DNA from: Treponema sp.
GTDB taxonomy: Bacteria; Spirochaetota; Spirochaetia; Treponematales; Breznakiellaceae
Assembly: GCA_009786455.1 (NCBI GenBank)
Contig: WQTD01000004.1
Span: 65,649 to 98,134, forward strand
DNA: 32,486 nt
Reading direction: 5' to 3'
Part shown: positions 2,163 to 22,375 of the stretch, in pieces
How the letters are laid out: the number at the start of each line of letters is the position of its first letter
How positions within the stretch are numbered: the first letter of the stretch is position 1
Position numbers and translations under genes: made by a program
The notes under the pieces: model-generated
Told to the model about the DNA's origin: nothing
The model's database searches: none
What the model saw: only the letters and a program-made list of their open reading frames with translations

Positions 2163-3089
2163 TCACTGATAATATTTTTTCGCTGTTTCAAAATCCGCGA
2201 TTGCTTTATCATATTCACCTTTGCTGTGCAGGGCGTTTCCGCGGTTGTTGAAAGCTATGGCATAATCCGGTTTTAACCTGATTGCCTCTGTAAAATCACT
2301 GATTGCCCTGTCGTCGTTCTTCCGGTGATACCACGCGCTGCCTCTTCTGTTCCAGATGTATGCATTTTGCGGCTCAAGCCTTAAAATGCTGGTGCAGTCT
2401 TCAATCGCCTTTTCATAGTTGCCTGTATTGTAATACGCGTGGGAGCGGTTAATGAGAGCGTCAACATAGTTTCTGTTAAGAACGATTGCGCGGGAAAAAT
2501 CATCTATTGCCAGATTATAGGAAACGGCGCTTGTGCCTGCCGACGTTCTTGCAAAGCCCCGGTAGTTGTATGTTTCCGCTCTGTTGTTATCGAGCCTGAT
2601 CGACTGGGAAAAATCGTCAATCGCCCGGCTGTATTCTTTCTTTTTAAGCCAGGCTTTTCCCCTTGAAATGTAAGCTTCCGTAAATTCCCTGTTAGTGCCG
2701 ATTGACGCTGTATATTCATTAATCGCCTTGTCATAATCGCCTGTTTTAAAAAATTTTTCACCTGAAAGATATAATATTAAATACTGCTGCGCTCCCATTT
2801 GCTTCATGATATCAAGATCGGGATTTTCATAATTTATAGGATTTATTTCATAAGCGCTGACCCTGCCGCTTATTCTGGAAATATCGGGCAATATACGCCC
2901 GGAGTGATAAGAGATCTGAACATTGCCTTTTTCTTCCTTGACTGCAACCGCTTGAGCTTCCGCCGCTTCCGGTTCGGCTTCGAAAACTGTTTCCGGGATT
3001 ATTTGTTCAGTAATATCCGGTTTTCTGTTACAGGCGGAGAAAAGGACGCAGACTGCAAGCAATACATAAAAATATTTAATAATATCCAT
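2163..3089 (-). CDS. TPR-repeat lipoprotein
   Basis: The product has 308 residues. The N-terminus is a lipoprotein signal ending LFSAC, with the predicted lipidated Cys at residue 20, so it should be anchored in a membrane facing the periplasm or cell surface. From about residue 105 to the end there are about six tetratricopeptide repeats, with typical endings such as YDKAINEYTASI, YSRAIDDFSQSI, YEKAIEDCTSIL and DRAISDFTEAI. TPR arrays bind proteins and have no enzymatic activity, so the role is probably assembly or scaffolding. The ATG lies inside the end of the upstream gene, overlapping it by 14 bases, and no Shine-Dalgarno sequence is visible. Translation is therefore probably coupled to the 604-residue membrane protein, which is its most likely partner. 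Confidence 0.85.
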   Translation of the reverse strand: MDIIKYFYVLLAVCVLFSACNRKPDITEQIIPETVFEAEPEAAEAQAVAVKEEKGNVQISYHSGRILPDISRISGRVSAYEINPINYENPDLDIMKQMGAQQYLILYLSGEKFFKTGDYDKAINEYTASIGTNREFTEAYISRGKAWLKKKEYSRAIDDFSQSIRLDNNRAETYNYRGFARTSAGTSAVSYNLAIDDFSRAIVLNRNYVDALINRSHAYYNTGNYEKAIEDCTSILRLEPQNAYIWNRRGSAWYHRKNDDRAISDFTEAIRLKPDYAIAFNNRGNALHSKGEYDKAIADFETAKKYYQ

Positions 3090-4924: not shown

Positions 4925-4953
4925 TTGCCGGTTTTTTAATTATTTAATACTAT
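4925..4953 (+). promoter_or_regulatory. Putative promoter of the TPR gene, start codon 9 nt after the -10
   Basis: TTGCCG (4925-4930), a 17-bp spacer and TACTAT (4948-4953) make a moderate sigma70-type pair. The ATG is at 4962 and there is no Shine-Dalgarno sequence before it, so the transcript would have a leader of at most a few bases. Overlapping TATATA and TATATT sequences nearby make the exact -10 uncertain. This 71-bp divergent gap must also hold the promoter for the minus-strand gene starting at 4890. Confidence 0.4.
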
Positions 4954-4961
4954 ATATTGAC

Positions 4962-6338
4962 ATGGTGAAAAATTTCAATAGAAACATCTGTTTAGTGTTC
5001 TTTTCCGCGATTTTGCTGTTGCTTGCTCCTTTTCTTTATGCTCAGGACAGCACAGAAGTAATTTTAAACGATGTTATCGCTTTGCTTGCCGGCAGGAATT
5101 TTTCTTCGGCGCTGGAATTATTTGATAAACTTGATCCGCAGGTTGCGCAGGATACCGGAATTCAGATTTTACGCGCTTCAATATCAAATTCCGCTGGGAG
5201 ACCGGCTGAAGCGATCCAAATAGCAAATCGTATTATCGCGCTTGACGGCAATAATACCGATGCATTGATGATTTTGGCTGATTCTGCCGCTTTGCAAAAC
5301 AGGGAACACGACAGGCGGCGGCTTCTTGAAAGAATAATCAGTATTAGTCCCGCTCACGCCAGAGCGCTGACTGATTTGGGGAATTTAAGTCTTGGGAGCC
5401 GTAATCTCCATGTCGCAGCCGGTTATTTTGACAGAGCTCTTGCCGCGGAACCTGAAAACGGGGAAGCTCTTGTAGGACGCGCGGTCATTTACCGGTACGA
5501 CAGGGAATCCCGAAACTCCGAGCGTCTTTTGAACAGAGCGGCAAGCTTATACCCGGCATGGGCAAGACCTCTCCATGAAAGGGCAAGGCTTTACAGAAGC
5601 GCCGGTTTTCATAACGACGCTTTGGAAGACCTTGATTTGGCGCTGGAACTTGAAAACGAAAATTACTGGATTATTACGGACCGCGGACAGGTTCTAATGG
5701 ATATGGGCAGAAAACAGGAAGCGCTCGCCGCTTTTGCGCGTGCGATTGAAATAGAACCCAACGCTTTTCTTGCCTATGTTTTCAGCGCCGGCATTAAAGA
5801 CGAGCTCGGAGATTATGCAGGTTCGGAAAAAGATTATGTAAAGCTTGCAGGTATAAGACCTGATTATTATTTTGCATTTGAAGCAATCGGAATCTTCAAT
5901 ATGAAAAATAAAAACTGGGCAAAAGCAAGGGACGCTTTTTTGGACGCATACAAACAGGCGCCTTCTGAACTAACATACGCCATGCTCGCCGCTGTTTGCT
6001 GGATGCGTGCGGGCAGGCAAACCGATCCCAAACAATTTATTGCACAGGTTCTGCGCACTGTTCCGCGGGATTCTTTTGAATATGCGATACTCAGACTTTA
6101 TCACGATCTTTCGGGTGATCTTGATGTGGCTAACAGAATTGAAACCGAAAAAAACGCCGATACAAAGGCGCGCATGATTTTTTATCTGGCGTCCTTTTAT
6201 GATATCAGAGGCAATACAAATTTGGCAAACCGGTATTATTCGCTTATGCAGGAGCAAAACGCAGCCGTTTCCGTTGAATGGCGGCTGAACGAATGGATAC
6301 TCGAAGAAAGAAATCTCGGCTTAAAGGTAAATAAGTGA
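4962..6338 (+). CDS. Exported TPR-repeat protein
   Basis: The product has 458 residues. Residues 1-28 are a Sec signal peptide ending LYAQ, with no lipobox, so a soluble periplasmic location is likely. The rest is a long tetratricopeptide array, with recognisable units such as PAEAIQIANRIIALDGNN, ARALTDLGNLSLGSRNL, HNDALEDLDLALELENEN, KQEALAAFARAIEIEPN and YAGSEKDYVKLAGIRPDY. Such arrays form a superhelix that binds other proteins. No catalytic domain is visible. The start lacks a ribosome-binding site and sits just after a promoter-like pair, so it may be leaderless. The stop overlaps the start of the TraB-family gene by four bases (GTGA), which indicates one transcript and coupled translation. 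Confidence 0.85.
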   Translation: MVKNFNRNICLVFFSAILLLLAPFLYAQDSTEVILNDVIALLAGRNFSSALELFDKLDPQVAQDTGIQILRASISNSAGRPAEAIQIANRIIALDGNNTDALMILADSAALQNREHDRRRLLERIISISPAHARALTDLGNLSLGSRNLHVAAGYFDRALAAEPENGEALVGRAVIYRYDRESRNSERLLNRAASLYPAWARPLHERARLYRSAGFHNDALEDLDLALELENENYWIITDRGQVLMDMGRKQEALAAFARAIEIEPNAFLAYVFSAGIKDELGDYAGSEKDYVKLAGIRPDYYFAFEAIGIFNMKNKNWAKARDAFLDAYKQAPSELTYAMLAAVCWMRAGRQTDPKQFIAQVLRTVPRDSFEYAILRLYHDLSGDLDVANRIETEKNADTKARMIFYLASFYDIRGNTNLANRYYSLMQEQNAAVSVEWRLNEWILEERNLGLKVNK

Positions 6339-8644: not shown

Positions 8645-9922
8645 TCACTGGAATCTTTCTATCCGCGCGCCTAGAGAGGAAAGCCTTTCAACAAGATGTT
8701 CATAACCCCTTTCAATCTGATAAACGTTGCGTATAACGCTTTTGCCCTCCGCGCACATGGCGGCAATCAGGAGAGCCATTCCGGCGCGCACATCGGGGCT
8801 TATAAGTTCGGAGCCGTGCAGTTTTGAAGGTCCGGATATCACAGCGCGGTGCGGATCGCATAACACAATCCGCGCGCCCATGCCGATAAGCTTGTCAACA
8901 AAGAACATTCTGGATTCATACATTTTTTCGTGAATTAAAACTGTTCCCTTTATCTGCGTTGCCGTAACAATCGCGATGCTTACAAGATCAGGCGGGAAAC
9001 CAGGCCAGGGCGCATCGTCTATCTTGGGGATCATTCCTCCAAGATCGTGGTTTACTTCCATGCTCTGGTTTTTCGGCACATGAATAACGGTCCCTTCATG
9101 CGCCCAGACAATTCCAAGTTTGCCGAAAGCGATCCTTGCAGGACGCATATCCTGCGCTGACGCGCCTTCAATATGAATATCTCCGCCTGTAACTGCGGCA
9201 AGACCTATAAAAGAGCCGACCTCCATAAAGTCCGCGCCAATTTCAAAATCGCAGCCTGAAAGTTTCTTTACTCCGGTAATCGTTAAAATATTTGAACCGA
9301 CTCCCTCAATCTGCGCCCCCATCTGCATAAGCATTCTGCATAAGTCCTGCACATGGGGTTCGCTTGCGGCGTTAGTCAAAATTGTTCTGCCTTTTGCAAG
9401 AACAGCCGCCATTATCGCGTTTTCAGTCGCGGTTACAGAAGCTTCATCAAGAAAAATATCAGTGCCTTTAAGCGACTTCGCCGTGAATGTAAATTTTTCA
9501 CCGATTTTCACTTTTGAGCCAAGTTCTGTCAGAACCAGAAAATGCGTATCAAGCCTTCGTCTTCCTATAACGTCGCCGCCTGGCGGAGGGAGAACCGCTT
9601 TTCCGGCACGCGCAAGAAGCGGACCTGCGAACAATATTGACGCCCTGATTTTTTTTGCCTGTTCATCAGGAATCTCGGATGATTTAATATCTTTTAAATG
9701 AAGATTGTAAATATTTTGCTGAAAAGAATTAACTTCTCCGCCGAGCGCCTTGAAAACATCAAGCATCACATGAACGTCTTCAATATCGGGGATGTTGCGG
9801 AGGACAACAGGCTCGCCGGTCAAAAGCGCCGCCGCAATGCAGGGAAGAGCGGCGTTTTTGTTTCCGCTCACCCTTATTGTTCCGTTAAGCGGAATCCCGC
9901 CGTTAATATGGTACTCGCTCAT
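8645..9922 (-). CDS. murA: UDP-N-acetylglucosamine 1-carboxyvinyltransferase MurA, Asp in place of catalytic Cys
   Basis: The product has 425 residues, close to the usual 419. MurA transfers enolpyruvate from PEP to UDP-GlcNAc in the cytoplasm, the first committed step of peptidoglycan synthesis. Visible landmarks are the N-terminal Lys22-Asn23 pair (GNKNAALP), [13 protein letters not shown], the mobile loop [16 protein letters not shown] (the equivalent of the E. coli catalytic Asp305) and ERGYE near the C-terminus. The loop residue normally Cys (E. coli Cys115) is Asp117 here. That substitution is known in mycobacteria, chlamydiae and spirochetes and makes the enzyme insensitive to fosfomycin, which alkylates the Cys. 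No ribosome-binding site precedes the ATG; a TTGACA/TACATT promoter ends 7 bases before it, suggesting a leaderless mRNA. rmuC follows in the same unit. Confidence 0.95.
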
Positions 9923-9928
9923 GTATTG

Positions 9929-9958
9929 AATGTAACTAAAAAGCCGTCACGCTGTCAA
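9929..9958 (-). promoter_or_regulatory. murA promoter, predicted leaderless
   Basis: On the minus strand, a perfect TTGACA (9958-9953), an 18-bp spacer and TACATT (9934-9929) precede the murA ATG, whose first base is 7 nt after the last -10 base (9922). That is where transcription would normally begin. No Shine-Dalgarno sequence is present. The promoter starts 12 bases after the stop of the upstream MFS gene on the same strand. Confidence 0.6.
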
Positions 9959-9969
9959 TGAAGGCGCTT

Positions 9970-11226
9970 TTAATCTCCCATTTCATCCAATACCTGCACC
10001 GCGCTTGTTGACTGCGTTTGATCTTCACCGTGACGCACAAAGAATAAACTTGCCATTGCAAGCGCAAAGGCAATGCACGCATACAGGAAAAGCGTTTTAT
10101 AACTGCCGGTTAAGTCGCGGATAAAACCGAATAAAACAGGAGATACAATCTGTGAACTGAAAGAGAAGAAATAATAATATCCGATAAATGTTCCGATTTT
10201 TTCCTCGCCGGAAATACGAACAACCATGGGAAGCGAATTAATATTTACAAGAGCCCATGAAAATCCGCCCAAAAAAAGACAGATGCGCGCCGCCCAGGCA
10301 TCGGCGATAAAAGCCAGCGGCAGGAATAACACTGTAACGCCGGACAGACCAATCAATATTGCTTTGCGTCTTCCTATCCTTGCGCCTATGAAACCTGCGG
10401 GAACCGCAAAGGTTAAAAACGTAATTGAAAAAATCGAAAGAGTCATCGCGGCGTCTCCCGCTGTCATGCCAAGAGTGTTTGTCGCGTACAATGTAAAGAA
10501 TGTTTCTACGGCATTATAACCTGTGAACCATAAAAAAACTCCAAAGAGAATCAACAGAAGACTCTTTTTTTCATCCTTATCAAGTTTTAGTTTGACTGTA
10601 TTTGTTTTATTTTCCGGTTCATAAGCCTGTTTGGGTTCGCGTACAAAAAGAGCAAGGACGGCAAGTGCGAGCAGCATCATTGCAGAGCTCATTATAAAAG
10701 GCAGAGGGAAACCGTTTCCGGTTTTGTTCAGCCAGAAATTAAAGAGAATGCCGCCCAGAAGAAAAGCGAACACGCTGCCGACACCTCCCATTAAGTTTAC
10801 AATTCCGTTTGCCTGACTGCGAAGCGGTCCGGGTGTAAGGTCGGGCATGAGCGCGACAACAGGGGATCTCCACGCTGACATTACAAATGTGAAAATGATT
10901 AACATCACCATTATTGTCCATAAAGTGTTCATGTAGGGAATCAGCGCAAAAGCCGCTGCGCAAACAGGAATGCCAATGAAGATATACGGCATTCTCTTTC
11001 CGAAACGGGTGCGGGTTTTATCGCTTAAATTTCCGAACAGGGGCTGAAATATAACGCCGAAGACATTGTCAACTGTCATAACAAGACCGATCAGCATGGT
11101 GCTTGAGATAAATCCTTCAAGTATCTGCGGTACGAAAGAATTGTAAACGCTCCATGCGATTGATGATGCAAAAAAGCCGAATGACAATAACAGCGTCACT
11201 TTTACATTTAATTTATTCTCCTGCAT
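9970..11226 (-). CDS. MFS transporter, sugar-cation symporter-like
   Basis: The product has 418 residues from the chosen ATG at 11226, where AAAGGGG lies 5 bases upstream. An earlier in-frame ATG at 11244 would add six residues but has no ribosome-binding site and would put that SD inside the gene. About twelve membrane helices are visible. Between helices 2 and 3 lies GNLSDKTRTRFGKRMPYI, the MFS signature in the form seen in the sucrose/maltose SLC45-like and GPH-type symporters (compare D-x-x-x-x-RFGRRRP). A second, weaker copy follows mid-protein (GARIGRRKAIL), as expected for two six-helix halves. The likely substrate is a sugar or glycoside moved with a cation, but no residue fixes it. 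The last 25 residues are a polar cytoplasmic tail. The gene is divergent from the recombinase. Confidence 0.85.
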   Translation of the reverse strand: MQENKLNVKVTLLLSFGFFASSIAWSVYNSFVPQILEGFISSTMLIGLVMTVDNVFGVIFQPLFGNLSDKTRTRFGKRMPYIFIGIPVCAAAFALIPYMNTLWTIMVMLIIFTFVMSAWRSPVVALMPDLTPGPLRSQANGIVNLMGGVGSVFAFLLGGILFNFWLNKTGNGFPLPFIMSSAMMLLALAVLALFVREPKQAYEPENKTNTVKLKLDKDEKKSLLLILFGVFLWFTGYNAVETFFTLYATNTLGMTAGDAAMTLSIFSITFLTFAVPAGFIGARIGRRKAILIGLSGVTVLFLPLAFIADAWAARICLFLGGFSWALVNINSLPMVVRISGEEKIGTFIGYYYFFSFSSQIVSPVLFGFIRDLTGSYKTLFLYACIAFALAMASLFFVRHGEDQTQSTSAVQVLDEMGD

Positions 11227-11396
11227 GACAACCCCTTTATTCATTAATTATTATTTCAGTTAATCCGCTGATAACCCAAAATATAATTATCGCAAATATT
11301 TTCAATTTCTGGCAAGAGGCGTAAAGAACGCAGGATTTATATTCGATATTCTACTATTACATTTTCATTTGTTACGGTCAAAAGCAGGAGGTTTTC

Positions 11397-12029
11397 ATGA
11401 TATATGGTTACATTCGTGTCAGTACAGATAAACAGACAATGGATAATCAGATGTTTGAGATAATGCGTTTTTGTAAATCAGAGAAATTTGAAATTAACAG
11501 ATGGATCACGGAAAAAATCAGCGGTACAAAGTCAGTTGAAAAAAGACAGCTTGGCAATTTGCTAAAGACAGTTGAAAGCGGAGACATAATAATTTGTTCG
11601 GAATTATCGCGTCTTGGAAGATCCTTTTTCATGATAATGTCGATTCTTTCAGCCTGCATGGAGCGCGGAGTTAAAATCTGGACAATCAAGGATAACTACA
11701 GATTAGGCGATGATATTCAAAGCAAGGTTCTTGCTTTTGCGTTCGGTCTGTCTGCGGAGATAGAGCGCAATTTGATTTCACAGCGCACAAAAGAAGCGCT
11801 TGCCCGTAAAAAAGCCGAAGGAAAAATCCTTGGCAGAAGACCCGGGAAATTAAAAAAAGTGAGATTGACAGGACACGAAAAAGAGATCAGAAAAATGATA
11901 CGCGAAGGGAAAAATAATGTCGAAATCGGAAAGCGTTTCGGAGTTCACCGGCAGACAGTAAGACATTTTCGCCGTGATCGGCTGACAAAACGGCAATTGA
12001 AGAAACTGTTTCCCGAAGATGCTCTGTAA
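11397..12029 (+). CDS. Serine recombinase (resolvase/DNA invertase family)
   Basis: The product has 210 residues. The N-terminal catalytic domain (1-135) has the family signature YIRVST with the nucleophile Ser9 and Arg7, then SELSRLGRS (about 64-72) and AEIERNLISQRTKEAL leading into the long E helix. The C-terminal part (about 155-192) has a Hin-like helix-turn-helix (NNVEIGKRFGVHRQTVRHF), followed by a 17-residue basic tail that is longer than in Hin or Gin. It should cut and rejoin DNA at short paired sites by a covalent 5' phosphoserine link. AGGAGG lies 6 bases before the ATG. No transposase, integrase partner or clear pair of crossover sites is visible here, so it may act on distant sites or be a leftover of a mobile element. 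Confidence 0.92.
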   Translation: MIYGYIRVSTDKQTMDNQMFEIMRFCKSEKFEINRWITEKISGTKSVEKRQLGNLLKTVESGDIIICSELSRLGRSFFMIMSILSACMERGVKIWTIKDNYRLGDDIQSKVLAFAFGLSAEIERNLISQRTKEALARKKAEGKILGRRPGKLKKVRLTGHEKEIRKMIREGKNNVEIGKRFGVHRQTVRHFRRDRLTKRQLKKLFPEDAL

Positions 12030-12066
12030 CAGGTGATTTTAAGGAAAATATTCCACGCTTTTTTTA

Positions 12067-12087
12067 TTGCTTGATACAAAAAAGCAA
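12067..12087. repeat. Short inverted repeat between recombinase and alpha-2-macroglobulin gene
   Basis: TTGCTT (12067-12072) and AAGCAA (12082-12087) form a 6-bp inverted repeat with a 9-bp centre. It overlaps the predicted -35 of the downstream lipoprotein gene. It could be an operator or half of a recombinase site, or chance in AT-rich DNA. Confidence 0.4.
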
Positions 12088-12099
12088 ATATGAGACAAT
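12071..12099 (+). promoter_or_regulatory. Promoter of alpha-2-macroglobulin gene, predicted leaderless
   Basis: TTGATA (12071-12076), a 17-bp spacer and GACAAT (12094-12099) lie so that the ATG at 12106 begins 7 nt after the -10. No Shine-Dalgarno sequence occurs between. The lipoprotein signal starting exactly at this ATG supports the start codon. Confidence 0.5.
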
Positions 12100-12105
12100 T
12101 TCTCC

Positions 12106-15100
12106 ATGTCCGTTAAAAGAATTTTTGTTATTTTATTGATTTTTTGCATATGTTTTTTATCCGGCTGCAGGAAGAAAACCGCAGCGGAAATCCACGAGAT
12201 TCCCGTTAATGTTAATGATTTCATTCTTGCAGGTTTGTATGACAGACCAATCGCGAATGAAGCGGCGGTTGAAGCAGCCTTTACTCTGGATTTCAGACCG
12301 TTAAAAGCTGAACCTGTAAACGAGGCGGAGATCTTAAGCGCTCAGGCTCTTTCTAGCGTAACATCTTCTTCCGGTTCTGTGACTGGCGGAGGGCTTCGAA
12401 AGCTAGCCGATTATAAAACAGAATATTTTGATCCCTTGCAGGATAACGCGCGCATTCAGGCAGTCCGCGCAGCGCAGACCGCCGCGATGCAGACAGGCGT
12501 TTCGGCGGCGAATAATGAGCCGTTGACTGTTATCGACTGGGGACCGAGAGGGGATTATTCTTCGGCGATTCAGCGTCCGTCTGTTTATGTAATTTTTTCG
12601 CAGCCTATAGTTGCGCTTGCAAGCCTTGGAGAGCAAAGCGCTTCTTCGCCTGTGATAAGCATTAATCCTCCGATTAAAGGAACTTTCCGCTGGTACGGGA
12701 CGAATTTTTTAAGCTTTGAAGGAGAAGAACCCTGCGCCGCCCAGCAGGAGTACAAAATCACTGTTGCAGCTAACGTATCATCGGTTTACGGAAACAGGCT
12801 TTCAGGAGACAGGGTTTTTTCTTTTTTTACCGAGGCTTTAAGCGTCAAAAACGTTATTCCGGGCGAAAGTTTCAGCAAAAACAACAATATGTATTTTGAC
12901 AATAACAATGTACCGCCGCCCGCCGCAAGGCAGATAAGCCTTGAATTTAATTATCCTGTTCAGGCTGGCGACATCAGCCAGTACATGGAAATTTACACAG
13001 GAAATACACAAAAGAGATTCACCTTAAAACAGGAAAACGAATATAAAATAATCGCTGAAATTTCAGATACTGTAGATTTCAATACACAGGTAAGGATTGT
13101 TTTAAAACAGGGAGCGAAATCGCGCAGCGGAAGCCGTGGAACAGAATTCGATCAAATTCACAGTTTCAGAACGCCCGGTCCTTTCACTGTAACGTCGCAT
13201 AACAGATGGCCCGGATACGGAAGGTACACCAATCTTGTCGAAATAAGTTTCAGCCACGCGTTAAATGAGAACGTTACGCGTAACGCCGTAAGCATTGAAC
13301 CTGCTCTTGTCTTTAGCAGGGATAATATCGAAGTATCAGGAAATACGCTTCGTATTATCAATCTGCCCGTTAAATTTAACGATCGTTTCGCAGTGAAAAT
13401 ATCAACAGCAGCTGAAGATATATTCGGCAGAAAATTATCTGAATCGTATACAGCCAACATTATAATGCCTGAAGAGCCTCCGCCGCAGGGTGAAGTAAAT
13501 TTTCTTGATTACAGGCGGCATACCATACTGGAAGCGCAGTTTCCTCCGCGTTATCTTTTTGAATACAGAAATATAACGGCAAATTCCGGCTATCAATTAA
13601 TAAAAAGAAATAATCCGATAATAACCGCCGAATCTGTCTGGTCAAGCGCTTCCAATTTTCAGCTAACTCCAAAGCAGCCAAATCAAAGATATTTTGAAGA
13701 AATTGATCTGAAACCCTATCTGAGAGAGCATGGAAAAATGTTCGTAGGGTTTGTCGGTTTCCGCACTGAAATGGAACTGCTTACAAGCGATTGGCAGCGT
13801 GACGGCACATACCGCGCAGGGACAAGAAAGATCGAAAGCATGTACAGCATACAGGTGACAGACCTTGGCGTTACTGTGCGTTACGGGATAAATAAAGCTG
13901 TTGTTTTGGTTACAAGCCTTTCTACCGGAAAACCAATTGAAGGCGCTGTTGTAAAAATATTGCCGCCTGCTGCAAATAACAGCGGTTTAGATACAATTGT
14001 TACATCAAATGCAATTGCAGAAGCCAAAACAAATGGAAACGGTCTTGCGGTGCTGTCTTTTAATCCTGTTATGACAAAACTTCGTTCTCAGACAGAGAAC
14101 GGCAGCAGCTGGAGAGGGTTTGATGAGCCGTTTGTCATGGTAGAGAATGGAAACGCAGACAAGGTATTATACACTCCCTCTTCGCATAACACATGGGCTT
14201 TCGGTTTTGGCTCCGCCATTCCCCAGCGTGCGGTAGAAGTTACTCCTCTTGCCTTTCTGTTTTCGGATCGAGGGCTTTATAAACCCGGAGAAACGCTTAC
14301 GTTCCGCGGCGTTGACCGTTCAAAGGTTCTTGGAATGTATACGATATACAACGGCGATTACACGATAATTTTTGAGGAAAACACCTACAGACCTGCGCAA
14401 ATTAAAACAATACACGGAGTGACAACAGAATCAGGAAGCTTCTTCGGGAAAGTTGAAATACCGGATGATTTAACACCCGGCGACTATAGGCTCATTTATA
14501 AGAGAGGAGACGGCTCTGATAATGAAATAATCGCGAATATTCCCGTAACGGTCGCTTTTTTTGAGCGCTTGAAATTTCAGGCGTCTCTTTCATCGCCTGC
14601 CGCGCCTGTGATAATGGGAGACGACATCAATCTGAACTTACAGGCAAGTTATCTTTCCGGCGGAAGCCTCTCCGGCGCTTCATGGGAATCTGCTTGGTAT
14701 GAACAGCAGACATCATTCCGTCCGCAGAACGCTGATACGCGAAACTTTATATTCGGTCCCAGCCGCGGATGGGACAGCATGCGTTATATTTCTTCCCAGA
14801 GCGGAATATTAAGCGGGCAGGGAACCGCAAGCATCAGCCAGAAAACTGGCGGCAGCAAGATAACAGGATCGCCGTATATTTATCAGGCTGAAGCGAGAGT
14901 GACCGATATAAGCAATCAGATGATTTCCGCTTCCCGTTCTGTTATTGCGCACCCGGCTTCTTTTTACATCGGTCTTTACAGGCAGGTCTCAGGTTTTTCC
15001 CGTGCAGGTCAGGAAGTCTCTTTTGATTATATTACCGTTAATACATCTGGTGAAAAAACACCGAATAACGCCCTGTTTCTGCAGTCAGGCGAAGGAGCCG

Positions 15101-18100
15101 GTCAAATCAAGGCTGAGCTTATACGCGAAGAATGGCGGCGCGTTCAGCAAAGGGGAGTGAGCGGCTATATTTATGATGAGTATACTTCGCAAAAAATAAC
15201 AGACAGCACGCAAACGATCAGTATCAGGAACGGCGGCGGGAAAATCAGCGTAAAGCCGTCGTCCGCAGGCTATCATATATTGCGCGTAACGTCAGCGGAC
15301 AGGGAAGGAAGAACCGCTCTTACCGAATTTACATTTTACGTAACAGGTTCAGGCGGTTACTGGAACATGAGCAATCCTTCGGAAATAAGACTGACCGCCG
15401 ATCAGAATGTTTATGAACCGGGCGATACGGCGAAAGTTTTGCTTCAAAGCGCGCTGCCGGAAGGTTATTACCTTATAACGGTGGAGAGGGAAGGGATATA
15501 CTCCGAAGAGGTCAGGTACTTAAACGAATCGGTTACTGTTCTGGATATTCCAATTGCGCGTAACTATGTGCCTGTCGTTTATGTCGCGGTCTCTTCATAT
15601 TCGATCCGCTCAGGTCCGCCGACCCATGAATACGGAAGCCCCGATCTTGACAAGCCAAAAGGTTATTTCGGCGTGACGCGGCTGAATATAAATCCGCGCG
15701 TACGAGCTTTTTCTGTCAAAGCGGAGAGCGATAAAAAAACCTACCGGCCGGGCGAAGAAGTTACAATGACATTAACCGCGACAAGGGACGGAAAACCTCT
15801 TCCCAATGCTGAACTTTCGCTTATGGCGGTTGACAGGGGAGTTCTTGATCTTATAAATTACCATGTTCCCGATCCAATAGAATATTTTTATTCCGAATAC
15901 CGTTTTCCTCTTTCTGTCGCAGGCGGAGATTCCCGTTCATGGCTGATGGACCCTGTAACCTACAGCGTAAAAAACCTTCAGGGAGGAGACTCCGAAGGCG
16001 ACAGCAAAATCGAAGAGCGGAAGGATTTTAATCCTACCGCTGTTTTCGAACCAATGCTGATAACGGACGCAAACGGAAAAGTTACGTGCAAATTCAAACT
16101 GCCTGATAATCTTACAACATACCGCGTTACTGTCTTTGGAGTGCGCGGAGATCTGTTCGCGCTTAAGGAAAGCGAGATTGCCGCGCAAAACAGGATAAAT
16201 GTGCGCGAGGTGGTTCCCCGCCGCCTTCGCGAAAGGGATACCGCCGAGGCGGGAGTGCTGATTACAAACCTTGATTCACAGTCTCATACGCTGACAGTCA
16301 GTCTCAATGTCGGAAATCCCCTTGCGGCGGACGCTTCAAGCGGGATTCTAAAAATGACAGGCAGCGCTTTTGTTGACGGAAACGCGGAGAGGCGGATAAC
16401 CGTTAAAAGCGGCGAAAACACAGTTGTTTATTTTGATGTCGCGGGCGTGAAAGAAGGAACAGTGACTTTGAATTTTACGGTAAGGTCCGATATTTTAAAC
16501 GAAAGGTTAATCCGCGAAATGACAGTTGAACGTCCTTATGTTTTTGAAACTGTTACAACTACAGGCACTGTAACCGCCGCGAACGCAAGTGAAGGAGTGG
16601 TTATTCCTTCGTTTGCAGATAACAACGCGGGAAGCCTGACTGTTACTCTTGACGCAACGCGCCTTGCCCTGCTTGACTCGGCGATAAATTATATTTTCCG
16701 TTACCCCTACGGCTGTCTTGAACAGCGAACCGCCGCAATTATGCCTCTTGTTGTTTTCGGTGAATACCTTGATGCGCTTAGTCTGAAAAGCGAAGTTTCG
16801 AATCCCCGGCGTGTTGTGGAAAATGAAATGCGATCATGGGCGCAAATTCAGCTTTCCAACGGCGGTTTCCCGTACTGGCCTTCAAGCATAAGATCGGATC
16901 TTTATGTGAGCCTGCGCGTTGCCCATGTTATAGCGATCGCAAAATCAAAAAACATGAATATTCCTTCTTCCATAAACATCACATCTCTTGTCGCATATTT
17001 AAACCGCGAGTATCAGGAAATACAAAAGTGGCAGAACGGTAATTCATCATATAATTATCATAATTATCAGTCCTATCTGCAGAGTTATATACTTTATGTA
17101 ATGTCCCTGCTCGGAGAGAGGGTTGATCCGTCGCGGTTAGCTGAAATCCTGAGCCGCAGCAATGTTGATCCTTCCGTGCTTGCCTTTGCAGGAATGACTT
17201 ACATGGAGCTGGGAAGAAGCGGCGATGCGGATAATACCGCACGGCGTTTGCGCAATTTAATCCGCCTGACGGCAAGAGGCGCGGATTTAACAGATCCGCT
17301 TGCAGGCAGCCGCAGCAGTTTCTACGGCGGCAATATCGAACAGCTCGCCCTTACCCTGCATTTTTTCGCGCAGCAGTTTCCCGGCGATGACATAAATACG
17401 CGCCTTCTTTTTTCGCTTATTGAATTTCAGAGATCAGATTCAGGATGGCAGAACACAGCCGATGTTTTCCGCATTCTTTCTGCTGTAGACGCTCTTATAA
17501 AAGCGGAAAATCTTGAAAACATCGACGTCAGGGGGAGCGTTTCACTTGGTTCAGCGGAACTGCTGCAGGGCGCTTTCAGGGGGCTTGGCGCCAAGCCTGT
17601 TACGCGCACTTTTGATTTCGGCTCTTCACAAATCGCCGGCATTGCCAGGGATCGCACCCAGACTCTTAACTTTACCCGAAGCGGAAATGGAAACCTTTAT
17701 TACACAGCGTCGCTGCGTTATGCGATACCGTCGGAGCTTCAGTCCGGCTGCGACGAAGGGATCGGGGTTTTTATGAGCATTTACGATATAGCAACCGGCG
17801 AAGAGATAAAGGGATCAGCGCTTAAAAGCGGAAAAACATACCGCGCCAGAGTGAGACTTTCTTCATCCAGGGATCGTACTTACCTTGCCCTGCGCGTTCC
17901 TGTGCCTTCCGGAGCTGAAATACTGGATGCCGCTTTTGTAACAACCGCTTCCTACGCCGATATGGGCGGAACAGGCGGAGAAGATGCAGGGTACGGAAAC
18001 AGTTCATGGATCAGTCATCAGGCGATTATGGATAATGAGGTGCAGTATTTCTGGGATCGTTTTTACAGGGGAGAAAATACGGTTAACTTCCTGTTCCGCA

Positions 18101-18204
18101 CGGCAAGAAGGGGAGTGTATCCGACGCCTCCTGTGCAGGCTGAGTGTATGTACGAGCCTGAAATCTTCGGAAGAACCCGGGGACTTTTATACACGATTGA
18201 ATAA
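12106..18204 (+). CDS. Bacterial alpha-2-macroglobulin lipoprotein with thioester motif
   Basis: The product has 2032 residues, longer than the roughly 1530-1650 usual for enterobacterial members because of an extended N-terminal region. The signal ends LSGC with lipidated Cys21, so it is membrane-anchored in the periplasm. The macroglobulin domains include the DRGLYKPGETLTFRG motif near residue 719 and a central MAVDRGVLDLINYHVPDP segment. FEPMLITDANGKVTCKFKLP follows in the main A2M domain. YGCLEQ carries the thioester pair Cys1537-Gln1540, within a helical thioester domain (about 1500-1790). Family members trap attacking proteases: bait cleavage triggers a shape change and covalent capture through the thioester. 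The gene directly precedes pbpC, as in enterobacterial yfhM-pbpC, matching the idea that the pair protects and repairs a breached envelope. Confidence 0.95.
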   Translation: MSVKRIFVILLIFCICFLSGCRKKTAAEIHEIPVNVNDFILAGLYDRPIANEAAVEAAFTLDFRPLKAEPVNEAEILSAQALSSVTSSSGSVTGGGLRKLADYKTEYFDPLQDNARIQAVRAAQTAAMQTGVSAANNEPLTVIDWGPRGDYSSAIQRPSVYVIFSQPIVALASLGEQSASSPVISINPPIKGTFRWYGTNFLSFEGEEPCAAQQEYKITVAANVSSVYGNRLSGDRVFSFFTEALSVKNVIPGESFSKNNNMYFDNNNVPPPAARQISLEFNYPVQAGDISQYMEIYTGNTQKRFTLKQENEYKIIAEISDTVDFNTQVRIVLKQGAKSRSGSRGTEFDQIHSFRTPGPFTVTSHNRWPGYGRYTNLVEISFSHALNENVTRNAVSIEPALVFSRDNIEVSGNTLRIINLPVKFNDRFAVKISTAAEDIFGRKLSESYTANIIMPEEPPPQGEVNFLDYRRHTILEAQFPPRYLFEYRNITANSGYQLIKRNNPIITAESVWSSASNFQLTPKQPNQRYFEEIDLKPYLREHGKMFVGFVGFRTEMELLTSDWQRDGTYRAGTRKIESMYSIQVTDLGVTVRYGINKAVVLVTSLSTGKPIEGAVVKILPPAANNSGLDTIVTSNAIAEAKTNGNGLAVLSFNPVMTKLRSQTENGSSWRGFDEPFVMVENGNADKVLYTPSSHNTWAFGFGSAIPQRAVEVTPLAFLFSDRGLYKPGETLTFRGVDRSKVLGMYTIYNGDYTIIFEENTYRPAQIKTIHGVTTESGSFFGKVEIPDDLTPGDYRLIYKRGDGSDNEIIANIPVTVAFFERLKFQASLSSPAAPVIMGDDINLNLQASYLSGGSLSGASWESAWYEQQTSFRPQNADTRNFIFGPSRGWDSMRYISSQSGILSGQGTASISQKTGGSKITGSPYIYQAEARVTDISNQMISASRSVIAHPASFYIGLYRQVSGFSRAGQEVSFDYITVNTSGEKTPNNALFLQSGEGAGQIKAELIREEWRRVQQRGVSGYIYDEYTSQKITDSTQTISIRNGGGKISVKPSSAGYHILRVTSADREGRTALTEFTFYVTGSGGYWNMSNPSEIRLTADQNVYEPGDTAKVLLQSALPEGYYLITVEREGIYSEEVRYLNESVTVLDIPIARNYVPVVYVAVSSYSIRSGPPTHEYGSPDLDKPKGYFGVTRLNINPRVRAFSVKAESDKKTYRPGEEVTMTLTATRDGKPLPNAELSLMAVDRGVLDLINYHVPDPIEYFYSEYRFPLSVAGGDSRSWLMDPVTYSVKNLQGGDSEGDSKIEERKDFNPTAVFEPMLITDANGKVTCKFKLPDNLTTYRVTVFGVRGDLFALKESEIAAQNRINVREVVPRRLRERDTAEAGVLITNLDSQSHTLTVSLNVGNPLAADASSGILKMTGSAFVDGNAERRITVKSGENTVVYFDVAGVKEGTVTLNFTVRSDILNERLIREMTVERPYVFETVTTTGTVTAANASEGVVIPSFADNNAGSLTVTLDATRLALLDSAINYIFRYPYGCLEQRTAAIMPLVVFGEYLDALSLKSEVSNPRRVVENEMRSWAQIQLSNGGFPYWPSSIRSDLYVSLRVAHVIAIAKSKNMNIPSSINITSLVAYLNREYQEIQKWQNGNSSYNYHNYQSYLQSYILYVMSLLGERVDPSRLAEILSRSNVDPSVLAFAGMTYMELGRSGDADNTARRLRNLIRLTARGADLTDPLAGSRSSFYGGNIEQLALTLHFFAQQFPGDDINTRLLFSLIEFQRSDSGWQNTADVFRILSAVDALIKAENLENIDVRGSVSLGSAELLQGAFRGLGAKPVTRTFDFGSSQIAGIARDRTQTLNFTRSGNGNLYYTASLRYAIPSELQSGCDEGIGVFMSIYDIATGEEIKGSALKSGKTYRARVRLSSSRDRTYLALRVPVPSGAEILDAAFVTTASYADMGGTGGEDAGYGNSSWISHQAIMDNEVQYFWDRFYRGENTVNFLFRTARRGVYPTPPVQAECMYEPEIFGRTRGLLYTIE

Positions 18205-18217
18205 GGTGACTGTCACC
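18205..18217. promoter_or_regulatory. 13-bp perfect palindrome covering the pbpC ribosome-binding site
   Basis: GGTGACTGTCACC begins on the base after the alpha-2-macroglobulin stop codon and ends 5 bases before the pbpC ATG. As RNA it can fold as GGTGA, loop CUG, UCACC. The only candidate ribosome-binding sequence (AAGGTGA, 18203-18209) lies in its left arm. Confidence 0.6.
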
Positions 18218-18222
18218 ATTAT

Positions 18223-20475
18223 ATGAACAAACGGAAATTTTTAATTTTGATGATGGGTGCGGCAGGGCTGCTCGCTGTCTTTTGGCTATTTTTGCGTTTT
18301 TCACCGTATCCTGCGCTCAGGCAGTTCCAGCAGCGTGCGAACAGCGTCCGCTATTATGACCGAAATGGAATGTTATTGCAGGTTACTCCCCTTGACGGCG
18401 GTCTTCGCCGGGAGACGCCGCAGGAAATCCCCCAATATGTAAAGGATGTTTTTGTATTTTCAGAGGATCGGCGTTTTTACCGCCATCCGGGAGTTGATGT
18501 TTTTTCGCTTGTCCGTGCGCTGTTTCAAAATACAAGGCAGCAAAGGAGAGTAAGCGGAGCCAGCACAATTACCATGCAGCTTGCCCGCCTGATTGCAGAT
18601 AACGCAAGGACGGACGCGCGCCCGCAGGGCCTGGGACAGAAAATTAACGAAACATTTAACGCACTGTGCCTTGAAACGCGGCTTTCCAAGGATAAAATTC
18701 TTGAAATGTATCTTTTAAACCTTCCGTTTGGGTTTAACACAGAAGGCGCGGCGTCCGCGGCAAGAACTTTTTTCGCAAGTGAATTAAACATGCTTTCTCC
18801 CGTGCAGGTTTTTGCTCTTGCCGTCATTCCGCGCCGTCCCGGCCTGTACAATCCGATTGAAAATCCCCGGAATTGCATTAGTGCAGCTTCCGAACTGCAC
18901 GGGAGGTTTGCAGCTAATAAAAAATTGAAGAAAGCATGGCCGCTTCTGGCGCAGATAAGACCTGAAGACTGGCAGTTTGTTTCATCATCGGCGCGGCGTT
19001 TTAATTATCCGTTTGAACTGCCTCATCTGATACGCGGAATAAACAGCGGGAACAGAAGCGAAGTGCGCCTTACGGTTGATCTTCCCCTGCAAAATTTTCT
19101 GGAAGGAGCAATCGCTGGAAATGTTATGCGCTATTATTCTTCCCGCGTTACAAACGGAGCGGCTTTTGTAATCGACAACGAAACGGGAGAAATTCTTGCG
19201 TGGGTCGGCAGCGCGGATTTTTTTAACAGGGTGGATGCCGGGCAGATTGACGGAGTGCTGGCGTTAAATCAGCCGGGTAGCAGCATGAAACCTTTTTTGT
19301 ACGCTATGGCCCTTGAATACGGCTTTAGACCGACAGAAATTATCGCTGACATCCAGATGACCTTCGGCGAAAGTGAAATTTACATTCCAAGGAATTTTAA
19401 CGAACGTTTTAACGGACCGATGCTCCTGCGCGCGGCTCTTGCTTCAAGCCTGAATATTCCCGCCGTTTACCTTCTCTACAGGCTGGGTGTGCAGAATTAC
19501 GGAGATTTGCTTTTTTCGCTTGGTTTTGATTCAATTGAAAAATCTTTGGAAGTCGCGGGACTTGGACTTGCTCTCGGGAACGCTCCTGTCAGCCTATTGG
19601 AGCTTGTGAGAGCGTTCAGCGTTTTTACACGGGACGGCGTTTATCTTCCCCTGACATGGGAAGCGGATAGTAAAACGCGGGAAGGAATAAATATTTTTTC
19701 AGCAGATACCGCGCGGCTTATTCTTTCTTTTTTATCGGATCCGAACGCAAGAGTGCTTGCTTTTGGTTCGGCGAGGAATTTCAGAACAGAGTTTCCCGCG
19801 ATTTTTAAAACAGGAACGGCAAATCAGTTTCAGAGCATTGTAGCTCTCGGGGCGACAGCAAGATATTCAGCGGGAGTTTGGATGGGGAACTTCACGGGAG
19901 AGACCGTTATAGGAAGAACGGGAAGTTCAATACCGGCGGCAATTGTTCGGGATGCGCTTGTTTTTCTGGAAAAGCGGCATGGAAACGCTGTAGATTTTCC
20001 CGTTCCGGAAAACTGGAAACCGCAGCGTGTCTGCGCTGTTTCCGGAATGTTTCCGCTGGAAGCGTGCCTCTCTGTGATTGACGAATATGTGCGTCCTGAC
20101 GAAGGATTAGCGTTATGTGACTGGCACAAAATAATAAACGGAAGAAGTGTTACAGTTTTTCCCGCCGAGTATCAGGCGTGGTTTAACGCCGTTTCAAGGC
20201 AGGGCTCGGTTGATTACTCATCGCGCCCGTTGGAAATAATAAATCCCCGAAGCGGTTTTTCATATCTTTCAGGTCCCGGTATCGGTTCCAATGAAGAAAT
20301 ACCGGTTGAAGTTATCGGCGGAACAGAAGATGTATTGTCAGTAACGCATAACGGGAGAATATTTTCTTCGAACCGGCCTTTTGTTTTTTACCTTCCGCGG
20401 ATAACCGGAGAAAACATTCTTCGCGTTCAGAACGGCGGCGAAGAAGAAACTGTAATTTTCACAGTTGAACGTTGA
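18223..20475 (+). CDS. pbpC: Penicillin-binding protein 1C
   Basis: The product has 750 residues, near the usual 770. A membrane anchor lies at about residues 6-26. The GT51 glycosyltransferase domain (about 60-230) has its catalytic Glu81 in SEDRRFYRHPGVD, plus the GASTITMQLARL motif, and polymerises lipid II. The transpeptidase domain (about 295-580) has SxxK at Ser353-Lys356, SLN at 409-411 and KTG at 529-531, so all three penicillin-binding motifs are intact. The last about 85 residues form the small beta domain typical of PBP1C (BiPBP_C). The gene follows the alpha-2-macroglobulin by 18 bases and is surely cotranscribed; its ribosome-binding site lies in a 13-bp palindrome, which suggests translational coupling. 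It probably works in wall repair rather than bulk synthesis, by analogy with E. coli. Confidence 0.96.
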   Translation: MNKRKFLILMMGAAGLLAVFWLFLRFSPYPALRQFQQRANSVRYYDRNGMLLQVTPLDGGLRRETPQEIPQYVKDVFVFSEDRRFYRHPGVDVFSLVRALFQNTRQQRRVSGASTITMQLARLIADNARTDARPQGLGQKINETFNALCLETRLSKDKILEMYLLNLPFGFNTEGAASAARTFFASELNMLSPVQVFALAVIPRRPGLYNPIENPRNCISAASELHGRFAANKKLKKAWPLLAQIRPEDWQFVSSSARRFNYPFELPHLIRGINSGNRSEVRLTVDLPLQNFLEGAIAGNVMRYYSSRVTNGAAFVIDNETGEILAWVGSADFFNRVDAGQIDGVLALNQPGSSMKPFLYAMALEYGFRPTEIIADIQMTFGESEIYIPRNFNERFNGPMLLRAALASSLNIPAVYLLYRLGVQNYGDLLFSLGFDSIEKSLEVAGLGLALGNAPVSLLELVRAFSVFTRDGVYLPLTWEADSKTREGINIFSADTARLILSFLSDPNARVLAFGSARNFRTEFPAIFKTGTANQFQSIVALGATARYSAGVWMGNFTGETVIGRTGSSIPAAIVRDALVFLEKRHGNAVDFPVPENWKPQRVCAVSGMFPLEACLSVIDEYVRPDEGLALCDWHKIINGRSVTVFPAEYQAWFNAVSRQGSVDYSSRPLEIINPRSGFSYLSGPGIGSNEEIPVEVIGGTEDVLSVTHNGRIFSSNRPFVFYLPRITGENILRVQNGGEEETVIFTVER

Positions 20476-20500
20476 AAATTTATCATAATATCATTACAAT
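20472..20500 (+). promoter_or_regulatory. Promoter of cyclophilin-FKBP gene, predicted leaderless
   Basis: TTGAAA (20472-20477), a 17-bp spacer and TACAAT (20495-20500) are each one base from consensus. The ATG at 20507 starts 7 nt after the -10. No Shine-Dalgarno sequence exists in the gap, and the sequence around it is AT-rich. TTGAAA begins inside the pbpC stop codon. Confidence 0.65.
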
Positions 20501-20506
20501 CATCAC

Positions 20507-21562
20507 ATGAAAAACATCAGACATTTAATTTTATTTTTAACAGGAGTTATTTTTATTTTGAGTTGTACAAAAACAAACAATGCCCAGGATTTAAATTTGG
20601 GCGACGGACTTTTTGCGCGGATTACCACCAACAGGGGGGATATCATAGTGCGTCTGGAATATCAAAAAGCTCCCCTTACAGTCTGTAATTTTGTCGCTCT
20701 TGCGGAAGGGAAAATGGATAATACCAAGGGAAGATATTTTTATGACGGTTTAAATTTTCACCGTGTTATTTCCAGAGTAAACGGCGACGGCCAGGATTTC
20801 ATGATTCAGGGCGGATGTCCGCAGGGAAACGGAAGGGGAGGTCCCGGTTACAATTTCCCCGATGAAATAGACCCAGCGTTAAAACACGACAGACCCGGCA
20901 TTCTTTCCATGGCGAACGCGGGTCCGGGAACAAACGGCAGCCAGATTTTTATTACAATTGTTCCTACTCCCCATCTTGACGGGAAACATACGGTTTTCGG
21001 ACAGGTTGTCGCGGGACAAAATATCGTAAACACAACAAGGCAGGGCGATAAAATAGAAAAAATTATCATAATCCGCAATGGGCAGGAAGCTTCCGCTTTT
21101 AAAGCCGATCAGGAGAGTTTTGACAGGCTGCGAAGGGATATTGATATGATTAACCTAAGCAAAGCAGAAGCGCAAAAACAAGCGAATATCGACATTATCA
21201 ATGCGCAGTATCCGAATACAGTCCAGACAGCTTCAGGGATTCGCTATATTGTTCAGCAGCAGGGTTCAGGCGGAAAACCGCCGCGCGGTGCGGCAGTGAA
21301 GGTAAATTATAAGGGTATGCTGCTCTCCGGTTTTGTTTTTGACGATTCAAGTTTAAGGGGGGAGCCGATTGAATTCGAGGTCGGAGCGGGAAGGGTTATT
21401 CAGGGCTGGGAAGAGACCGTTCTTGACATGCAGACCGGTGAAAAAAGGCTTGTGATTATTCCTCCTGAACTTGCGTACGGAGACCGCGAAGTTGGAAACG
21501 GTCTTATTCCGGCTAACAGTTTTCTTGTTTTTGAAATGGAGTTAAAAAGTTTTAGTCAATAG
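20507..21562 (+). CDS. Dual-family immunophilin lipoprotein (cyclophilin + FKBP peptidyl-prolyl isomerase)
   Basis: The product has 351 residues. The signal ends ILSC, with lipidated Cys20, so this is an envelope lipoprotein. The cyclophilin domain (about 35-195) has FHRVI with the catalytic Arg, [14 protein letters not shown] and [12 protein letters not shown]. The Trp that contacts cyclosporin in human CypA is His here, as in many bacterial cyclophilins. A helical linker (about 200-235) leads to an FKBP domain (about 238-351) with [19 protein letters not shown] and [11 protein letters not shown]. Both domains catalyse cis-trans isomerisation of X-Pro bonds and should help exported proteins fold. 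I recall this cyclophilin-then-FKBP order from Treponema denticola, which supports a spirochete host. The gene appears to have its own promoter directly after pbpC. Confidence 0.93.
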
Positions 21563-21569
21563 AAGAGTC

Positions 21570-21598
21570 TTGTCAATATTTATTGATTGTTTTATTAT
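21570..21598 (+). promoter_or_regulatory. Promoter of PilZ gene, predicted leaderless
   Basis: TTGTCA (21570-21575), a 17-bp spacer and TATTAT (21593-21598) are each one base from consensus. The in-frame GTG at 21605 begins 7 nt after the -10. No Shine-Dalgarno sequence is present. The promoter lies 7 bases past the previous stop. Confidence 0.6.
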
Positions 21599-21604
21599 TT
21601 GTGT

Positions 21605-22375
21605 GTGAGCGATGAAAAGCAGGATTCTGATATAACAGGAAGAAAAATTTATTTTCTCTTTCCTACTGCTTCCGTGCAGAATCAAGTTGTCATTGAGCTT
21701 GTACAGCAGGAATATGAAGTTTATGTAATAAAAGATTCCAACCGCATGCTGCGTTATATAAAAAAATATCCTGATTCAGCAGTATTTGTTAATATTGATG
21801 AAGGAATGGGATATGCCGAATGGGAGAAATGGGTTGCAGGAGTCAATACGTCCTTTCCTGATACGATTATTGGAATTTTTACTTCAAAAAACGATGAGGA
21901 ATTGCATAAAAAATTTACCGGCGTTCATTGTATAAAATGCGGAGTTACGCTTTTAAAAGTTGACATGACCAAAACCGCAGTCAAAATTGTTGAAATGATG
22001 AATGAAATGAATATAAAAGGCAGGCGCAAATATCTCCGCGCTACTTTGGAACGTGAAACAAACGCGAGCATGAATATGCCGTACGGCGGCGATTATTTAA
22101 GCGGTACAATCAAGGATATAAGCATTGTCGGTTTTTCCTGTTCATTTGAGACGGAAATTAATTTACCGAAGAATTCCTTTATTAAAGATATACAGATTAA
22201 ATTACAGTCAGTTCTTTTAAGGGTAGAAGCGATTGTTTTTGGCTCCCGTGAAGAAGAAGGTCAGAGAAAATATGTAATGCTTTTTACGCAGAAGGTTGAC
22301 ACCGAAATGCGTACGAAAATACGCAAGTATATTCAAACCAACCTTCAGGCAAGAATGGACAGCGAAGTAGGTTAA
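21605..22375 (+). CDS. PilZ-domain protein with receiver-like N-terminal domain
   Basis: The product has 256 residues from the chosen GTG at 21605 (MSDEKQDSD). A TTG at 21587 in the same frame would add six residues but would lie inside the promoter. Residues about 10-120 show alternating strands and helices like a response-regulator fold (KIYFLFPTASVQNQ, then SAVFVNIDEG and IIGIFTS), but without a clear phospho-acceptor arrangement. The C-terminal PilZ domain (about 138-250) has RxxxR at Arg141-Arg145 and DxSxxG at Asp171-Ser173-Gly176, the two motifs that bind cyclic di-GMP. It is thus a likely second-messenger receptor, acting through a partner not visible here; spirochete PilZ proteins have been linked to motility and virulence. 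It is convergent with the PII-like gene. Confidence 0.88.
   Translation: MSDEKQDSDITGRKIYFLFPTASVQNQVVIELVQQEYEVYVIKDSNRMLRYIKKYPDSAVFVNIDEGMGYAEWEKWVAGVNTSFPDTIIGIFTSKNDEELHKKFTGVHCIKCGVTLLKVDMTKTAVKIVEMMNEMNIKGRRKYLRATLERETNASMNMPYGGDYLSGTIKDISIVGFSCSFETEINLPKNSFIKDIQIKLQSVLLRVEAIVFGSREEEGQRKYVMLFTQKVDTEMRTKIRKYIQTNLQARMDSEVG

Follow-up and report, generated by a model that had tools for sequence, protein, structure and literature searches.

The window analyzed here, a stretch of 32,486 nucleotides (nt) from Treponema sp. (Breznakiellaceae; assembly GCA_009786455.1, contig WQTD01000004.1, forward-strand positions 65,649 to 98,134), holds five genes whose start codons lie almost against a promoter-like pair of hexamers: a murA-like gene, a gene for a bacterial alpha-2-macroglobulin (A2M), a cyclophilin-FKBP gene, a PilZ-domain gene and a TPR gene (Table 1). 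The name murA comes from an earlier note on this DNA and is consistent with the sequence. That note had seen in these layouts a predicted class of leaderless mRNAs. A direct rereading recovers all five in place, with the boxes, spacers and distances it had described: the first base of the start codon lies 7 nt past the last -10 base (distance 7, that is, 6 nt in between) in four genes and 9 nt past it in the TPR gene. The murA start was set by its orthologues, the open frame upstream having no further ATG, GTG or TTG; the A2M frame opens at 12094, with ATG 12106 as its earliest start codon; and the PilZ GTG aligns with the ATG of its orthologues, with two in-frame TTG codons 6 and 18 nt upstream.

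Table 1. Genes of the window with start-adjacent promoter-like hexamers; positions are counted from the first base of the window.
Feature	Positions	Strand	Remarks
murA -35 box TTGACA	9953..9958	-	read directly; kept in relatives
murA -10 box TACATT	9929..9934	-	18-nt spacer; distance 7 to A of ATG
murA-like gene	8645..9922	-	Pfam PF00275 EPSP_synthase; predicted leaderless ATG at 9922
A2M -35-like box TTGATA	12071..12076	+	read directly
A2M -10-like box GACAAT (off TANNNT)	12094..12099	+	17-nt spacer; 6 nt to ATG
Bacterial alpha-2-macroglobulin gene	12106..18204	+	Pfam A2M, A2M_BRD, bMG10
cyclophilin-FKBP -35 box TTGAAA	20472..20477	+	read directly
cyclophilin-FKBP -10 box TACAAT	20495..20500	+	17-nt spacer; 6 nt to ATG
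cyclophilin-FKBP gene, predicted leaderless	20507..21562	+	Pfam PF00160 + PF00254
PilZ -35 box TTGTCA	21570..21575	+	read directly
PilZ -10 box TATTAT	21593..21598	+	17-nt spacer; 6 nt to GTG
PilZ-domain gene, possible leaderless GTG start	21605..22375	+	Pfam PF07238
TPR -35 box TTGCCG	4925..4930	+	read directly
TPR -10 box TACTAT	4948..4953	+	17-nt spacer; 8 nt to ATG (distance 9)
TPR gene	4962..6338	+	Pfam TPR families; inferred leader about 0-2 nt

None of the five genes has a Shine-Dalgarno (SD) site, scored as any of five 4-mers within a 15-nt stretch, and such sites do precede the recombinase, the TolC-like channel, the adaptor, the RND pump and mtnP (the last from an internal ATG at 31523), as the earlier note had said. 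Absence of an SD site is by itself not diagnostic, since the TPR lipoprotein gene at 3089 and the PBP1C, mtnA and TetR genes also lack one and have no TANNNT 5-11 nt ahead of their starts. When TANNNT at distance 5-11 is combined with TTG at a spacer of 16-18, 4 of the 21 window genes checked are retained (murA, FKBP, PilZ and TPR); A2M drops out because its -10 hexamer is GACAAT.

To place these genes against chance we used a sample of the same genome (832 kb, made up of 40 stretches of 20 kb and the window; 665 genes, 664 usable), with genes called by a hexamer score and the start taken as the first ATG of the open frame or from simple candidates, together with samples of a genome of the same genus (G020), one of the same order (G025) and one of the same family (G156). 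In the window's own genome, TANNNT ahead of the first ATG is most frequent at distance 7, with 42 genes as against 13-30 at most other distances. The spacing scan that the earlier note had called for gives the same picture once a -35 element is added: TTG-16/18-TANNNT stands at distance 7 in 17 of 664 genes, as compared to a mean of 1.21 and a maximum of 4 in 200 dinucleotide-preserving shuffles, and likewise in 10 of 303 genes of G020, 11 of 328 of G025 and 10 of 134 of G156 (shuffle means 0.44, 0.66 and 0.26). In the own genome, distance 8 has 3 genes with this pair of elements. An SD 4-mer accompanies the distance-7 layout in none of the 17 genes of the own genome, 2 of the 10 of G020 and none of the 11 of G025. 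At the shuffle rate, three such genes among the 21 of the window have a p of about 8e-6; the window is also locally rich in them (3/21 vs 15/643 elsewhere in the sample; Fisher p 0.016, a post hoc comparison). Moreover, among 148 orthologue pairs with matching starts, TANNNT lies at distance 7 in both members of 7 pairs, where 1.5 are expected, and is shared at any other distance by 0-2 pairs. Expressed as a share of all genes, the TANNNT excess at distances 6-8 amounts to 6.8, 8.7, 4.3 and 10.9% in G000 (the own genome), G020, G025 and G156, so that the layout occurs in roughly 4-11% of genes, of mixed functions, in these four genomes. This class of start-codon-adjacent promoters is thus real. 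From an SD peak 6-9 nt ahead of starts we infer that the own genome also has a working SD mechanism; a 16S tail pattern, TGGATCACCTCCTT, has 0 matches in the own assembly, which at 86% completeness says nothing on the anti-SD sequence.

The signal extends well beyond these samples. A loose form of the pattern gives 163 matches in the own genome vs 74 for the reversed control. A strict form (TTGACN-16/18-TANNNT-6 nt-ATG), counted in 150 genomes of the phylum with a 12-nt gap and a reversed pattern as controls, gives 3301 matches at distance 7, 1274 at distance 13 and 850 reversed, with the count at 7 higher than that at 13 in 139 genomes, equal in 3 and lower in 8. In family f42 two genomes together have 205 matches at distance 7 vs 67 at 13, and no excess is seen in families f7 (12 vs 10), f37 (23 vs 22) and f26 (24 vs 21); the signal is therefore widespread in the phylum and absent from some of its families. 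The five f7 genomes are small (1.0-1.8 Mb). G156, with 122 strict matches at distance 7 vs 11 at 13 and 4 reversed, has by far the top ratio near the window's lineage, and many of its matches run through TATACT into an A-rich stretch, with a T or C ahead of the ATG. Across 30 genomes of the genus, ATG starts give 814 matches vs 114 reversed and exceed the control in 30 of 30, whereas GTG starts, with 119 vs 71 (18 of the 119 in the single genome G018), exceed it in 17 of 30. As GTG starts are hardly enriched over their control, this is essentially an ATG class.

The spacing of the two hexamers points to promoters of the sigma-70 type, TTGACA-like and TATAAT-like and about 17 bp apart, with the A2M -10 element off consensus. 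Among the 91 SD-less distance-7 genes pooled from the four genomes, TTG lies at exactly 17 nt in 36, at 16 in 4 and at 18 in 6 (46 of 91 for the three together), and at each of the remaining spacers tested in 0-3. The base ahead of the start codon is a pyrimidine in 115 of 150 strict matches from five genomes (A in 32, G in 3; the count covers all strict matches of four genomes and 32 of 33 of the fifth) and in 36 of 48 layout genes of the four samples, as compared to 48-67% at other gene starts. Accordingly, we posit, with a probability of roughly 0.85, that these are ordinary promoters from which transcription begins at the start codon itself, with leaderless mRNAs as the predicted product. 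RNA polymerase would bind TTGNNN-17-TANNNT and begin transcription about 7 nt past the -10 element, on the A of the ATG and usually after a pyrimidine; the RNA would then have its 5' end at the start codon, which would be bound directly, without SD pairing. Such direct binding is established for leaderless mRNAs elsewhere.

Of the window's genes, murA offers the best view of how this arrangement is kept and lost. In a first set, with loci for 30 of 41 matches and none from family f4, the full layout at distance 7-9 is found in 24 of 28 readable loci, the window's own included: 19 of 21 in the genus and all 5 from families f2 and f5, with mostly dissimilar DNA between the boxes. Both f3 loci have AGGA in its stead, and the two remaining genus loci are one truncated by a contig end and one without the layout. 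A second set comprises the best 80 of 519 named murA matches, mostly Treponema and metagenome-assembled genomes of gut Spirochaetales; it shares organisms, and some identical upstream sequences, with the first and is not independent of it. Of these loci, 42 show the full layout (distance 7 in 33 of them, 8 in 6, and 6, 9 or 10 in one each), 13 the -10 element alone, 18 an SD site and 7 neither, with AGGA also present in 4 of the 42. The Gracilinema caldarium locus (L320) has the layout. A single quick FastTree tree implies at least six changes between leaderless and SD types, and the nesting of three leaderless-type loci (L332, L334 and L335) inside an SD-rich clade suggests that the layout may have been regained there.

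A Pfam domain is present in the open reading frame (ORF) ending 2-25 nt upstream of murA in 8 of 9 SD-type loci tested: an M20 peptidase in L327, L328 (below the Pfam cut-off), L329 and L341, LGT in L345, L346 and L350, and TSCPD in L338, with none in L331. The corresponding count for leaderless-type loci is 0 of 10. Many of the upstream ORFs of the latter terminate at the TGA within the TTGACA box, and most of those translated also showed a long opposite-strand frame; given this and the want of Pfam domains in the ten, we take them to be chance frames. Since only the first gene of a transcript can be leaderless, we would expect an SD site at any gene behind it. These upstream frames indicate that in some SD lineages at least murA now lies directly behind another gene. 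For murA, the layout probably dates far back within this order and was probably swapped for an SD site in several lineages. On balance we lean, if narrowly, toward a more general picture: in this order murA, an essential cell-wall gene, would carry an old fusion of promoter and start, with a predicted leaderless mRNA in several families; an SD site would take the place of this fusion once another gene sits immediately upstream, and the fusion could later return, the two being interchangeable, position-dependent states of one gene.

The other four genes conform to the leaderless prediction unevenly, and their counts are to be read with the fact that several starts of the TPR, FKBP and PilZ relatives were misplaced by the script. 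The cyclophilin-FKBP layout is conserved in the genus, with the full form at distance 6-8 in 11 of 20 loci and the -10 element alone at distance 7 in two more; outside the family, 8 of 10 loci have an SD site. The PilZ layout recurs in 7 of 20 readable genus loci, and its GTG is a plausible leaderless start. For the TPR gene, 5 of 30 loci show the layout at distance 9, and a very short leader would fit it. For A2M, the TANNNT layout is found in 0 of 9 near-complete genus loci, and we discarded it as a conserved member since its relatives L139, L143 and L144 have TTGCGN-17-GATAAT followed by a 17-nt G-rich leader with GGGG or GAGG. L140 resembles the window (TTGCTT-17-AATAAT-6 nt-ATG), and it is possible that the leader was lost in these two. 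The predicted leaderless class of the earlier note is supported as a class, by the distance-7 peak in SD-less genes, the 17-nt spacer and the conservation in orthologues; gene by gene, murA and FKBP fit it well, PilZ less so, and A2M is doubtful.

The surroundings of A2M vary as well. An MFS transporter gene and a serine recombinase/resolvase gene sit between murA and A2M (9970-12029), and in L137 and L163 the A2M start lies, by its upstream sequence, directly divergent from the murA promoter; the two genes therefore look inserted in the lineage of the window. The A2M gene of L163 (genome G019) is split by one in-frame stop together with a frame change from one match to the next.

Several observations weigh against the leaderless reading or against its extension to murA's position. 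Gene starts were called by a simple script, and among the window's own genes A2M and the GTG-started PilZ fit poorly. TANNNT at distances 12-30 has TTG at 17 nt in 31 of 428 cases, and thus ordinary leadered promoters exist. Taken by itself, the own genome shows just a slight pyrimidine excess at -1 (11 of 17). Among the 80 named murA loci a pyrimidine there is frequent whether the full layout is present (39 of 42) or not (30 of 38), so that for murA it is not specific. The Pfam test of upstream ORFs covered just 9 of the 18 SD loci and 10 of the 55 of the leaderless type, and such an ORF is missing from 7 of the SD loci. A same-strand upstream ORF, tried mechanically as a predictor of the SD type, was not significant and was rejected (11/18 SD vs 28/53 leaderless-type, p 0.59). 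The window's murA itself lies 48 nt behind the same-strand MFS gene and has its own promoter within the gap; therefore, position alone is not decisive.

Some of these data might also be read as very short leaders, with transcription starting 1-5 nt upstream of the start codon and leaving no room for an SD site. In its favor are the lesser counts that the own genome gives for TTG with TANNNT at distance 6 (6 genes), 9 (8 genes) and 10 (6 genes), the recurring distance-9 layout of the TPR gene and the A at -1 in about a fifth of the strict matches; however, distance 7 has the top count in each of the four genomes (17, 10, 11 and 10 genes), and -1 is mostly a pyrimidine, as expected for a start on A, so that we regard short leaders as an unlikely general explanation. 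The least probable alternative is that the layout merely reflects A+T-rich DNA upstream of SD-less genes, or promoters at random short distances. There is indeed a flat TANNNT background, with a mean of 11.5 per distance among 357 SD-less genes, and strict matches at distance 13 also exceed the reversed control. Nevertheless, the shuffles, the confinement of the excess to distance 7 and spacer 17, and the concentration of orthologue-pair conservation at distance 7 exclude such an artefact as the whole explanation.

The earlier note had further suggested that leaderless mRNAs might place envelope and signaling genes under a translational regime of their own, and by our reading of their Pfam domains several of the five window genes do look envelope- or signaling-related. 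Beyond the window the members are mixed. Among the other 15 of the own genome are RuvA, peptide deformylase, HPr kinase, CheR, an SpoU methylase, DUF72, GH26, TM2, an AAA/DUF4143 protein and EamA, with no family above the Pfam cut-off in 5 of the 15, and the 10 of 15 members scanned in G156 are equally mixed. Signal-like N-termini, scored by a crude hydrophobicity rule, are not enriched, with 6 of 18 members as against 127 of 321 for SD genes and 93 of 304 for the remainder. Neither Pfam nor the N-terminus rule shows a coherent function, with no formal test of enrichment made across all genes, and the suggestion is not supported, as the members are mixed; we consider such a regime very improbable.

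If ordinary promoters fused to start codons are the correct reading, start-codon and 5'-untranslated-region annotation, reporter design and expression models in this group should allow for leaderless transcripts. Moreover, the several moves of murA between the leaderless and SD types among close relatives amount to a natural experiment on the cost of each state. This renders testable the broader question of whether leaderless translation serves as a regulated mode or simply follows from a gene's being first in its transcript.

Spirochete genes of this kind have already been published, and hence the kind itself is known. A 2011 survey of TA-led bacterial genes tabulates leaderless genes for 6 of the 18 genomes of Spirochaetes, at a mean of 3.9% (1.8-6.9) (PMC3160421). 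Its genes lack an SD site and have TANNNT some 12 bp ahead of the start; ours correspondingly show TANNNT clustered about 6-7 nt ahead of the start, no SD site and an excess over shuffles, and differ in the -35 element at 17 nt, the gene-by-gene conservation and the estimates of 4-11%. An analysis of non-SD genes in 260 prokaryotes likewise ties such signals to leaderless mRNAs and gives its six Spirochaetes a negative mean on the axis linked to leaderless-type signals (PMC5397173). Among the papers listed we found no report of leaderless mRNAs in Treponema or of leaderless murA, and for murA the list was partial and does not establish absence.

Two systems come closest. In Deinococcus-Thermus, a -10 motif adjacent to ORFs marks nearly a third of D. 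radiodurans genes (PMC12340547); there TANNNT lies mostly about 6-7 bp upstream of the ORFs, with no pathway bias, with conservation in homologues and with leaderless expression, comparable to what we describe or, for expression, predict. However, most of those genes have no classical -35 element, while about half of ours have TTG at 16-18 nt, and the share of genes is smaller here than in D. radiodurans. In Leptospira interrogans, also a spirochete, differential RNA sequencing found about 440 leaderless mRNAs with 5' ends under 10 nt from the start codon (PMC5243855). There too many transcripts begin 0-10 nt before the start codon, with the 5' ends determined experimentally, whereas here they are predicted from DNA layout alone; the motif section of that paper does not report the -35/-10 layout seen here. 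What is new in the present case is the conservation at the level of individual genes, the switches of murA and the spread of the layout within this termite-gut lineage.

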